A stretch of DNA of 64,000 nucleotides, taken from assembly GCF_008693385.1 (NCBI RefSeq), contig NZ_CP044065.1, forward strand, positions 2,542,001 through 2,606,000, in the 5' to 3' direction. The translations under genes were made by a program, and so were the position numbers. Below, piece by piece: positions 43,206 through 46,193 of this stretch. Position 1 is the first letter of the stretch; every line of letters starts with the position of its first letter. Origin of the DNA: Cupriavidus pauculus. Its GTDB lineage: Bacteria; Pseudomonadota; Gammaproteobacteria; Burkholderiales; Burkholderiaceae. The notes below the pieces were generated by a model. That model did not search any database. It saw nothing but the letters and a program-made list of their open reading frames with translations, and was not told the DNA's origin.

Positions 43206-44591
43206 TCAAAAGGTCGCGAGCTTGGCCTGTACACCGGCGATTTCCACATCGGCCACGCCCTCCGCCAGATGCGCCTCCACAATGGTGCCGGCGCGCATCT
43301 CTTGCGGCGAACGCAGCGCGTGGCCGCGCTGGTCGATCAGCACCGCGTAACCGCGTTCCAGCGTACGCTGCGGTGCCAGCAACTCGAGCGCACCCGCGGC
43401 GCGGGCAAGCCGCGCGCCGGCGCGTTCGTGCTGTCGGTTGGCGGCCGCGGCGAGCCGCGCGGACAGGCGGCCGAGGTCGGTGCGCGCGCGGGCCACATCG
43501 GGCATGCACGCGCGCCAGCGCATGGCCAGCACCTGCTGGCGGTGACGTTGCACGGTCACCGTGTCGCGTAATGCCGCACGCAAGTGTCGGGCCAGATTGT
43601 CCACGCGCGCGCGGCGCTCCTGCAGTTGCGCCTGCGGGCTGCGCAGCCGGCGCGCGAGCCAGTCCAGATGCTGGGCGCGGCGATCCAGCTGCCGCGCCAT
43701 GCACTGGCGCAGCGCGTCCTGCGCGCGGCGCGCGAGCTGCAGCAGATGCGCGCGGTCGGGACTCACCAGTTCGGCGGCACCGGTCGGCGTGGGCGCGCGC
43801 ACGTCGGCGACGAAATCGGCAATCGTGAAATCGGTTTCATGCCCCACGCCCGACACCACCGGCATCGCACTGCGCGCGATCGCATGCGCCACCACTTCCT
43901 CGTTGAACGACCAAAGGTCCTCGATACTCCCGCCACCGCGGCACAGGATCAGCACATCGCACTCGGCCCGCGCGCTCGCGGCATCGAGCATCGCGGCGAT
44001 GCGATCGGCCGCGCCCGCGCCCTGCACGGGGACCGGATACACGATGACAGGGACATGCGGCGCGCGCCGCCGCAGCGTGGTCAGCACGTCGCGCATCGCG
44101 GCCGCCTGCAGCGAGGTGACCACGCCGATCGAGCGCGGATGCGTGGGAATCGGGCGCTTTCGTTCATTCGCGAAAAGCCCCGCCTGTGCAAGTTTTTCCT
44201 TGAGCCGCAGGAACGCTTCGTAGAGATTGCCGAGCCCCGCGCGGCGCATCGCCTCCACGCCGAGCTGCAGTTCGCCGCGCGCCTCGTACATGGAGACCAG
44301 CGCGCGCACTTCCACCGCTTCGCCTTCGCGCGGCGAGAAATCGACATGCTGGTTGCGGCCGCGGAACATCGCGCAGCGAATCTGCGCGCGGGCGTCCTTG
44401 AGCGAGAAATACCAGTGACCGCTGGCGGCCCGCGTGAAATTGGAGATTTCGCCACGCACCCAGGCAAGCGGAAATGTGCGCTCGAGCACCGACGAAATCG
44501 CGTGGTTGAGCTCGCTGACCGCAATCACTTCACGGCCGCCAGCCGAGGCGTTGGACGGCGTTGCGCGGGGAACGTTCGGAAAGTCGGGCAT
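43206..44591 (-). CDS. xseA: Exodeoxyribonuclease VII large subunit
   Basis: DNA repair nuclease subunit of 461 residues. It has an N-terminal OB-fold ([24 protein letters not shown]), a catalytic domain with [31 protein letters not shown] and [16 protein letters not shown], a long coiled-coil region (about 290-390) and a short C-terminal segment (LERGYAVL). The ATG at 44591 is chosen because the upstream extension would add a non-conserved Cys-rich stretch. Confidence 0.96.
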
Positions 44592-44733
44592 GGTCCACTG
44601 CCGCGCGGGCGGCGTGAAATTGACATGTCCACAGCATAACCGCTCTGTCAAGAGGCACACCTCACGCGACCCGTTTGATCTCGTAACCCGCTTGTCTCCG
44701 TACAACTCTTTGATTCTTATGCCTTTTCCGTCC

Positions 44734-44866
44734 AAGGCAAAAAATAGGCAATGTAAGAGAAACGCTTACGCGTCAACGACTTACGGCGCGCACCCCCGCA
44801 TTGTTCACAAAGTTATCCACAGAAGTTCTGGATAAACGGCAACGCGCTGTGCGGCGCTGTGGATAA
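44734..44866 (+). repeat. Array module 0 (diverged)
   Basis: Right stem arm AGGCA (44746-44750), core TCAACGACTTA (44773-44783), nonamers TTGTTCACA (44801-44809) and TTATCCACA (44813-44821, perfect DnaA box), and a perfect inverted DnaA box TGTGGATAA (44858-44866). TTATCCA (44813-44819) also pairs with TGGATAA (44829-44835) as a local dyad. Confidence 0.75.
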
Positions 44867-44976
44867 TCGCGATCGCGGTTGCGCTGCTCGCGCTGGAGCA
44901 ATCGCGCGGTCGGGAAGCATCACTTCCCCGCGTCGCGATGCGTGGGCGAGGGCCACACTGGCGTTTCGGCCCGATT

Positions 44977-45089
44977 TGCCTGTTTTTTAGGCAGAGATCG
45001 ATTCGCCTTTACAAAACAAGGGGTTAGATACCCTGTCCGGTATTTGTCCACAACCCGTCCACAAGACTGTCCCGCAGGAATGTGGAAAT
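44977..45089 (+). repeat. Array module 1
   Basis: Stem TGCCT/AGGCA with loop GTTTTTT (44977-44993), core from 45006, nonamers TTGTCCACA (45044) and CCGTCCACA (45055), CTGTCCCGC (45067-45075), inverted TGTGGAAAT (45081-45089). Confidence 0.85.
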
Positions 45090-45136
45090 TCGTCACAGTG
45101 TCGACACACTCGCCCGGCCGTCAACCGGGACCGCAC

Positions 45137-45249
45137 TGCCCGTTTTTTGGGCAACGCAAGTTTCTTCCTTTGCAATCAACGGGTTGAGTCAGTTTTGCGC
45201 AACCTGTCCACAACCGATCCACAATCCTGTCCCGCTCCCGTGTGGATAC
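45137..45249 (+). repeat. Array module 2
   Basis: Stem TGCCC/GGGCA with loop GTTTTTT (45137-45153), core from 45167, nonamers CTGTCCACA (45204) and CGATCCACA (45215), CTGTCCCGC (45227-45235), inverted TGTGGATAC (45241-45249). Confidence 0.85.
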
Positions 45250-45277
45250 CGCGGGGTTCGGGGCAGCGCGGATGCGG

Positions 45278-45390
45278 TGCCCATTTTTCGGGCAGCCCGC
45301 GCGACACCCTTTACGATCAACGACTTAGCGCATCTATCCGGCGCGTATCCACAAGCGGTCCACAGTGCTGTCCTGCCCGTCTGTGGAAAG
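45278..45390 (+). repeat. Array module 3
   Basis: Stem TGCCC/GGGCA with loop ATTTTTC (45278-45294), core from 45308 with TCAACGACTTA (45317-45327), nonamers GTATCCACA (45345) and CGGTCCACA (45356), CTGTCCTGC (45368-45376), inverted TGTGGAAAG (45382-45390). Confidence 0.85.
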
Positions 45391-45572: not shown

Positions 45573-46193
45573 GTGTTTTCCATCATTCAAGCGGCCGGCT
45601 GGCCGATCTGGCCGCTGCTGCTCGCCTCGGTCATCGCGTTGGCGCTGATCGTCGAACGTTTCCTGTCGCTGAAGCGCAGCAAGGTGCTGCCGCCGAAGTT
45701 ATACGACGAAGCGCTGTCCGCCGCGCAACAGCGCCGCGCCACGCCCGAGGTCGTCAACAACCTCGAGAAGAATTCTCCGCTCGGCCGTATCCTGGCCGCC
45801 GGCCTGCGCCACGTCGTGCTGCAGCCGCATACCTCGCGCGATGCCGCCAAGGACGTGGTCGAGGAAGCGGGCCGTGCCGTCGCCCATGACCTCGAACGTT
45901 ACCTGAACGCGCTGGGCACCATCGCTTCGGTGGCGCCGCTGATGGGCCTGCTCGGCACCGTGATCGGCATGATCGAGATCTTTGGCAACCAGAACGGCAC
46001 GGGCGCCAATCCGGAGCAGCTGGCACATGGCATCTCGGTCGCGCTCTACAACACGGCGTTCGGCCTGATCGTGGCGATTCCCGCGCTGATCTTCTGGCGC
46101 TACTTCCGCCGCCGCGTGGACGACTACGTGGCCGAGCTGGAATTCCGCGCGACCACGTTCCTCGACGCCATCCTGCCGCAACGGCGTTCGTAA
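45573..46193 (+). CDS. exbB: ExbB/TolQ/MotA-family proton channel subunit
   Basis: Inner-membrane proton-channel subunit of 206 residues with three helices (about 10-28, 110-135, 150-175) and family signatures SVAPLMGLLGTVIGMIEIF and ALYNTAFGLIVAIPALIF. It starts with GTG at 45573 after a GGGGG ribosome site. With exbD 17 bp downstream it powers outer-membrane uptake or envelope constriction; ExbB rather than TolQ is chosen because no tol-pal genes follow. Confidence 0.93.
   Translation: MFSIIQAAGWPIWPLLLASVIALALIVERFLSLKRSKVLPPKLYDEALSAAQQRRATPEVVNNLEKNSPLGRILAAGLRHVVLQPHTSRDAAKDVVEEAGRAVAHDLERYLNALGTIASVAPLMGLLGTVIGMIEIFGNQNGTGANPEQLAHGISVALYNTAFGLIVAIPALIFWRYFRRRVDDYVAELEFRATTFLDAILPQRRS

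Follow-up and report, generated by a model that had tools for sequence, protein, structure and literature searches.

The 981-bp gap between the divergent xseA and exbB genes of Cupriavidus pauculus houses four modules and, judging by their make-up, is probably a DARS2-type DnaA-reactivating control locus that has been expanded into four tandem units. The common order within the modules is a Fis-like site, an IHF-like site, and then a DARS-geometry set of DnaA boxes (III, II, and I, the last inverted). The gap is located within a 64,000-nt stretch of DNA (the window, to which coordinates refer unless another sequence is named) that forms part of a 3.72-Mb contig; the genome comprises 7.06 Mb in three contigs.

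Module architecture of the gap

The features of the gap and its neighbours are as follows.

43206..44591, minus strand: xseA, divergent neighbour (ORF with the start set at MPDFPN; tblastn synteny; gene name from the original prediction)
44735..44749, plus strand: module 0 Fis-like palindrome AGGCAAAAAATAGGC, 36 bp before the IHF-like site (consensus GnnYAnnnnnTRnnC)
44771..44783, plus strand: module 0 IHF-like site CGTCAACGACTTA, 30 bp before box III (consensus WATCAAnnnnTTR)
44801..44809, plus strand: module 0 DnaA box III TTGTTCACA, assigned by DARS-core geometry
44813..44821, plus strand: module 0 DnaA box II TTATCCACA, perfect, assigned by DARS-core geometry
44827..44835, minus strand: module 0 DnaA box I TTATCCAGA, head-to-head with box II, assigned by DARS-core geometry
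44858..44866, minus strand: extra perfect DnaA box TTATCCACA 3' of module 0, missing from some relatives
44978..44992, plus strand: module 1 Fis-like palindrome (the "stem" of the original prediction), assigned from sequence
45014..45026, plus strand: module 1 IHF-like site AAACAAGGGGTTA
45044..45089, plus strand: module 1 DnaA array (IV 45044-45052, III 45055-45063, degenerate II 45067-45075, inverted I 45081-45089)
45138..45152, plus strand: module 2 Fis-like palindrome, assigned from sequence
45174..45186, plus strand: module 2 IHF-like site AATCAACGGGTTG, assigned by consensus fit
45204..45249, plus strand: module 2 DnaA array (IV 45204-45212, III 45215-45223, degenerate II 45227-45235, inverted I 45241-45249)
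45279..45293, plus strand: module 3 Fis-like palindrome, assigned from sequence
45315..45327, plus strand: module 3 IHF-like site GATCAACGACTTA
45345..45390, plus strand: module 3 DnaA array (IV 45345-45353, III 45356-45364, degenerate II 45368-45376, inverted I 45382-45390)
45573..46193, plus strand: exbB-like gene, divergent neighbour (ORF; synteny; gene name from the original prediction)

An earlier reading of this DNA (the original prediction) had described a four-module array spaced by 243, 160, and 141 bp, and these spacings were reproduced from the starts of the Fis-like/stem 15-mers (44735, 44978, 45138, and 45279 for modules 0 to 3). The distances given for modules 1-3 (67 bp from the stem T to the first nonamer and 37 bp from the first to the inverted nonamer) were recovered in each copy, as were the two perfect TTATCCACA boxes of module 0 at 44813 (+) and 44858 (-). 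The earlier inventory was accurate for these perfect boxes and incomplete elsewhere: the inverted box TTATCCAGA at 44827-44835 was overlooked, though it completes the core of module 0, and the IHF-like sites and degenerate box II were missing from the described module content. In the 981-bp gap, 12 nonamers ending in TCCACA were counted. Toward the xseA end, a conserved GACATGTCCACAGCATAAC-like element was observed at 44622-44640 (as ATGTCCACAGCATA in 22/23 same-genus gaps), together with a minus-strand IHF-like AATCAANNNNTTG at 44703-44715 (23/23 same-genus gaps).

Fujimitsu 2009 is reportedly the primary DARS paper. In E. coli MG1655, DARS1 (bioD-uvrB; stretch L069) and DARS2 (rppH-mutH; stretch L070) each carry boxes III, II, and inverted I at 0, +12, and +26; this spacing was fixed from E. 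coli and not from the data analysed here. The module 0 triple (TTGTTCACA, TTATCCACA, and inverted TTATCCAGA) has the E. coli spacing with a score of 25/27 and was unique in the genome in a pattern search allowing up to 3 mismatches, and core scores ≥ 22 gave 0 matches in 20 mononucleotide shuffles of the window. In the accessible text of the published accounts, DARS1 and DARS2 share the same box spacing and orient box I against II and III (PMC5742627), and the head-to-head I-II pair is characteristic of DARS and essential (PMC10380432). Module 0 contains all three boxes, with I opposite to II and III at the DARS1/DARS2 spacing, and judged by this geometry it is a DARS core. The E. coli DARS2 region was itself observed to hold a second triple with core geometry, at L070 position 1986 (-) and ~316 bp from the first.

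Modules 1-3 keep the spacing of III, II, and I seen in module 0 and carry an extra box IV 11 bp before III. A search for TCCACA-N5-TCCACA-N17-TGTGGA (≤ 1 mismatch) returned three occurrences in the 7.06-Mb genome, all within the gap, vs none for the reversed control, which indicates that the modules exceed chance. Although the spacing is kept, no canonical box II was found in the core of modules 1-3: across the 68 modules of this type extracted below, box II was most often CTGTCCCGC (23/68), which agrees with the consensus at 4/9 positions and is conserved in that form, or a close variant of it. For this reason, modules 1-3 are classed as DARS-like rather than DARS; measured by the essential I-II pair they are non-canonical, and this counts against the DARS reading.

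Consensus sequences for IHF (WATCAAnnnnTTR) and Fis (GnnYAnnnnnTRnnC) were taken from the accessible text of PMC10380432. In each of the four modules of the window, a WATCAAnnnnTTR-like site starts 30 bp ahead of the first box, and its distance to box III is 30 bp in module 0 and 41 bp in modules 1-3. Across 23 same-genus gaps, the best IHF-like match of module 0 was positioned 30 bp before III in 20 and 31 bp before it in 3, fitting 7/9 positions in 17 gaps and 8/9 in 6; for modules 1-3, the fit was 8-9/9 in 67 of 68 modules. The best Fis match upstream of the module 0 IHF-like site lay at -36 in 22 of these 23 gaps (5/6 positions in 21 and 4/6 in 2), and in modules 1-3 the stem is likewise placed 36 bp before the IHF-like site. 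Treated as a 15-mer, the stem fitted GnnYAnnnnnTRnnC at 6/6 positions in 28 of the 68 modules, 5/6 in 37, and 4/6 in 3. With a relaxed Fis consensus, the fit was 7/7 in 61/68 modules. The central 7 bp of the stem are 90% A/T vs 46% overall and alternate between A runs and T runs from copy to copy, a flip that a dyad-symmetric protein site could undergo. The "stem" of all four modules looks like a Fis palindrome rather than an RNA hairpin, and it does not covary. Predicted IHF-binding and Fis-binding sites, identified by consensus and fixed offset, hence flank the core on the box-III side, as in DARS2. IhfA-like and Fis-like proteins are encoded in 5/5 genomes tried, the C. pauculus genome included; the host IhfA scored above the family cut-off, and the host Fis homologue had 42% identity (1.3e-15).

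Conservation, spacing, and distribution

In order to examine conservation within the genus, positions 44734-45390 were compared by blastn with 40 relatives, counting the C. pauculus genome. Matches were obtained in 26/40 (the genome itself, 22/23 other same-genus genomes, and 3/16 from other families), and the single same-genus miss was a genome that is only 54% complete (G012). Synteny at xseA-exbB, which the original prediction had looked to, held across the same-genus matches: all 23 lie at exbB and 22 have a visible xseA neighbour, the remaining one (L011) being a short contig without xseA. The III-II string of module 0 (TTGTTCACAAAGTTATCCACA) is identical in 23/23 same-genus gaps. From these gaps, 68 modules of type 1-3 (three in 22 gaps, two in L024) were extracted by allowing ≤ 3 mismatches at boxes IV, III, and I; TCCACA at IV and III and TGTGGA at I proved exact in 68/68, and TCC was kept at box II in 67/68 and at a weak box V in 44/68. 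With L024 excluded, the nearest neighbour of a module was the module at the same array position in 64/66 cases. Given this positional orthology, the copies do not look like recent duplicates but like old ones that have diverged by position.

The distances between modules were then compared across the 22 three-module gaps. Modules 1 and 2 are separated by 159-161 (9 gaps), 170-172 (10), 183 (2), or 216 bp (1), and modules 2 and 3 by 118, 141, 152, 173-176 (5), 183-185 (5), 193-195 (2), 204-205 (4), or 215 bp (3), with a best period of 10.6-11.4 bp. The linkers had been described as variable; as free spacing this did not hold, most steps being about one helical turn. Using distinct values and a uniform null that ignores kinship, phasing gave 0/4000 for modules 2 to 3 (n = 14), p = 0.0005 for modules 1 to 2 (n = 8), and p = 0.024 in other families (n = 33). 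The other-family set held 61 distances, with L145, L148, L150, L156, L157, L175-L177, and others with one usable match omitted. Because these p-values rest on that null and ignore kinship, helical phasing is regarded as suggestive; it is in keeping with modules contacting one another along a single DNA face.

An independent test was carried out on xseA-exbB gaps of other genomes. ExbB similarity was the sole basis for fetching loci (the top 80 of at least 574, some bearing no more than a phylum-level or class-level MAG title), and 71/80 with xseA, exbB, and a gap ≥ 150 bp were kept (9 dropped for having no adjoining xseA or a gap < 150 bp). Cores scoring ≥ 22 were present in 65 of the 71 gaps on the plus strand and in 9 on the minus strand, and absent from flanking coding DNA (0/71) and shuffled gaps (0/710). 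At score 23, (12,26) led all 176 plus-strand spacing pairs (55 gaps vs 19 for the runner-up). IHF and Fis offsets were scanned around 114 cores in 65 gaps, and were obtained without R1, a sequence-only model whose matches favour R1 spacing; R1 likewise played no part in the module 0 offsets of the 23 same-genus gaps. Plus-strand IHF-like matches (≤ 1 mismatch) between -70 and -14 fell at -29 (25) or -30 (22) in 47 of 51 cases, with 4 elsewhere; minus-strand matches around the 114 cores were not concentrated (top offset 5). Fis-like offsets peaked at -66 (38), -65 (22), and -64 (13), the next best having 6. Under the same ≤ 1-mismatch rule, cores accompanied by an IHF match at -29 to -31 were present in only 16/71 gaps, and the ~300-bp gaps titled Variovorax, Acidovorax, Rhodoferax, and similar mostly hold a lone core without that match. 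Conservation of the orthologous gap was accordingly found both within the genus and in gaps from other genomes.

Among 30 genomes (mostly chosen for carrying arrays), 24/26 exbB loci adjoin xseA, and 21 of these 24 have a core in the gap. Two or more R1 matches elsewhere were recorded in 20 of these 21 genomes; this arrangement may represent a DARS1-like plus DARS2-like division. Beside exbB in G030 (L148), four cores were found with a canonical or near-canonical box II, the array ending ~180 bp from exbB; their best IHF-like match lies exactly 30 bp before III in 4/4, and their Fis-like matches are poor (3-5/6).

Across the order, the box-only pattern (≤ 1 mismatch) matched 24/300 genomes, vs 0 for the reversed control. 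The flanks of many of these matches, which the pattern does not use, carry the same palindrome and IHF-like site (14 hand-picked rows). In those rows, the IHF-like site is 11 nt closer to box IV than in Cupriavidus, from which Cupriavidus seems to have gained one helical turn carrying the weak box V. By match length, a locus titled Ralstonia sp. SET104 resembles the Cupriavidus arrangement. R1 matched 112/300 genomes of the order at E 0.001 and 53/300 at 1e-6, with up to 9 matches per genome. Among 398 genomes of a phylum survey, it gave 25 rows outside the order at E ≤ 0.001 (5 from the same class and 20 from the same phylum), such that the 1e-3 tier includes some false or remote matches, and at E ≤ 1e-6 only G335 remained. 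This genome, of another class, has a divergent pair of R1 matches (G335:C9:112524-112736; L162). R1 was rejected as a detector of E. coli DARS, having returned nothing significant on the E. coli DARS and datA stretches (best E 0.37, off the cores).

Upstream of exbB, R1 matches (E 0.01) were obtained at loci titled Pandoraea, Ralstonia, Undibacterium, Massilia, Janthinobacterium, and Herbaspirillum, and tandem arrays occur in many genomes, at xseA-exbB or elsewhere. In other families, comparable modules adjoin unrelated genes (asparaginase, MarC, GGDEF-EAL, RNase II-type, and others). In sister genera of the same family (G142, G277, and G307), no exbB match was found at 1e-30, and R1 matches were weak or absent. 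In four f28 genomes (G275, G140, G179, and G214), the array lies ~23-54 kb from exbB and does not adjoin it. Cores with DARS geometry were also observed next to a gene with PriA Pfam domains in L031 (G036) and L033 (G030); L031 has a uroporphyrinogen decarboxylase gene on its other flank, and L033 has two cores ~465 bp apart.

In C. pauculus, the array is located ~601 kb from dnaA and ~701 kb (18.9% of the contig) from a cluster of three perfect DnaA boxes, and in 7/7 same-genus contigs measured the distance from array to dnaA is 13.7-18.5% of the contig. The corresponding distance of E. coli DARS2 from oriC is 20.6%. No constant position was found outside the genus, the best matches in single-contig genomes lying from ~1% (G240) to ~48% (G241) of the replicon from dnaA; with this scatter, position is considered conserved for the genus only. 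The three-box cluster (G000:C1:3287389-3288485) is ~98 kb beyond dnaA and, by comparison with C. metallidurans CH34, is likely the skew origin; in CH34, the accessible text of PMC2864759 places the skew origin ~90 kb from dnaA, with three perfect boxes. R1 had no match in the dnaA stretch (L159), and its only matches in the whole genome were the three of this gap. Within that stretch (G000:C1:3187723-3189450; also L075), DnaA model matches 1-77 and 80-437 were observed ~418 bp apart in one 756-aa frame, by which Cupriavidus DnaA seems to have a very long linker.

Comparison with known DnaA-binding loci and rival explanations

Of the functions first suggested for the array, the DARS-like one is supported by the core geometry, by the side on which the IHF-like and Fis-like sites flank the core and the order they take there, and by the finding that the orthologous gap is conserved. 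The array shares with E. coli DARS2 the 0/+12/+26 core with inverted I, IHF-like and then Fis-like sites on the box-III side, and a similar relative distance from the origin. In our scan, E. coli DARS2 was ordered as a Fis-consensus match, two IHF-like sites 3 bp apart, and then III, II, and I, and the site order described in the accessible text of PMC4245941 runs on the same side as here. The array differs from DARS2 in having four tandem units per gap, one Fis-like site per unit, different neighbours, and three units in which box IV is additional and box II departs from the consensus. The E. coli-like lengths between core, IBS, and FBS were not matched either (IHF to III 30 or 41 bp here vs ~71 bp there; Fis to IHF 36 vs ~54 bp). 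DARS1 has the same core geometry, and its scan gave no IHF-like site, like most compact xseA-exbB cores of other families (none at -30), whereas each module here has IHF-like and Fis-like sites. Lengths of 455 bp for DARS2 and 101 bp for DARS1 are given in the accessible text of PMC5742627. Transcription through DARS sites is reported to be harmful to them in the accessible part of PMC5010248, and the divergent orientation of xseA and exbB fits such harm.

The array could instead act like datA, with ATP-DnaA oligomers on tandem boxes hydrolysing ATP with the help of IHF and lowering ATP-DnaA after initiation, and module 0 possibly doing the reverse. Like datA, the gap combines DnaA boxes with IHF-like sites; it has many weak boxes, and its head-to-tail boxes V, IV, and III, with a period of ~11 bp, resemble ATP-DnaA arrays. 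In datA, the boxes that are essential all point the same way around a single IHF site, and the accessible text of PMC5742627 describes no Fis site for the minimal locus. No co-directional boxes flanking one IHF site were found in the gap: box I points the opposite way, each set of boxes has its IHF-like site outside it, and a Fis-like site stands at a fixed offset. Given this mismatch in layout, the datA-like function first suggested for the array is unlikely.

Passive titration, in which a cluster of sites soaks up DnaA after passage of the fork, is a little less likely again. The 12 TCCACA nonamers, roughly one sixth to one fifth of the chromosome away from dnaA or the likely origin, would suit this role, but fixed spacing, set IHF and Fis offsets, and helical phasing are all seen, and none of these is needed for titration.

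The gap might alternatively be a transcriptional control region through which DnaA, IHF, and Fis regulate the divergent xseA and exbB. It is intergenic between divergent genes, and near xseA it has the conserved element (22/23 gaps) and the minus-strand IHF-like site (23/23). With similar modules near unrelated genes in other families and a geometry that is that of DARS, however, we consider this explanation improbable.

It is highly improbable that the array is a crtS-like signal from chromosome 1 to a RepA-type second chromosome. The genome does have another contig of at least 2.8 Mb, and the array is on the dnaA-bearing contig. A 17-nt RepA-type repeat has been reported for C. metallidurans CH34 (accessible text of PMC2864759); this repeat, which is that of CH34 and may not be that of the host, was absent from the gap (≤ 3 mismatches) and matched once in the window, far off, vs 1.77 expected. 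Arrays also occur in single-contig genomes (e.g., G275 and G241). A cryptic oriC is disfavoured as well. The gap shares with oriC the presence of DnaA boxes with IHF and Fis sites, and boxes recur at ~11 bp in oriC as they do here, but no GC-skew turn was found in the window and dnaA is ~601 kb away.

A tandem family of noncoding RNAs with a selected stem, as also suggested originally, is hardly tenable: although the fold of the 657-nt strand is better than those of 20 shuffles (z -3.37), an advantage that palindromes and inverted boxes could also confer, the spacing is locked to helical turns, the "loop" is an A/T tract, and no Rfam match was obtained at gathering scores. The compensatory change in the stem is real within this sequence, but no covariation accompanied it in a 32-row alignment, where two of the five pairs were broken in 19 and 20 rows, the covariation score was below the shuffled mean, 73.8% of cells were paired vs 74.2% in shuffles, and one pair had changes on both sides.

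Proposed mechanism and significance

If the gap is a DARS2-type locus, Fis and IHF would bend the DNA on the box-III side, and ADP-DnaA would assemble on the boxes with protomers head-to-head on I and II. ADP would then be released, and the freed apo-DnaA would reload with ATP, raising ATP-DnaA before initiation. Module 0 would serve as the catalytic core, while modules 1-3, phased on one face of the helix, would add cooperative DnaA binding or feedback and in this way sharpen or tune the switch. More tentatively, the locus may be a multi-unit, helically phased recharging array in which the Fis-IHF-DnaA modules act as one filament and the number of modules and the strength of box II set the sharpness of timing; modules 1-3 could then be a distinct ATP-DnaA sensor or feedback class beside a canonical exchange core, with recharging and sensing combined in one locus.

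In the accessible literature, the understanding of DARS control comes from E. coli, with its single DARS1 and single DARS2. In the accessible parts of the sources, DARS-like sequences are said to be conserved in many proteobacteria (PMC10380432), and the DARS2 core and Fis specifically in E. coli-related gammaproteobacteria (Kasho 2014; PMC4245941), a conservation that a 2017 review gives as beta or gamma. No publication on DARS in Burkholderiales or Cupriavidus, or on tandem DARS, was found in a literature search that was thin in subscription papers. Relative to the searchable literature, what looks new is the tandem arrangement, the additional box together with a box II off consensus, the helical phasing, and the wide occurrence in Burkholderiales.

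If these arrays are DARS loci, DnaA recharging would be old in the Burkholderiales and built there as multi-copy arrays. They would supply natural variants in spacing, copy number, and box II with which to test the roles of head-to-head DnaA, IHF bending, and Fis in nucleotide exchange, and would provide a handle on the control of initiation in multi-replicon hosts such as Cupriavidus.
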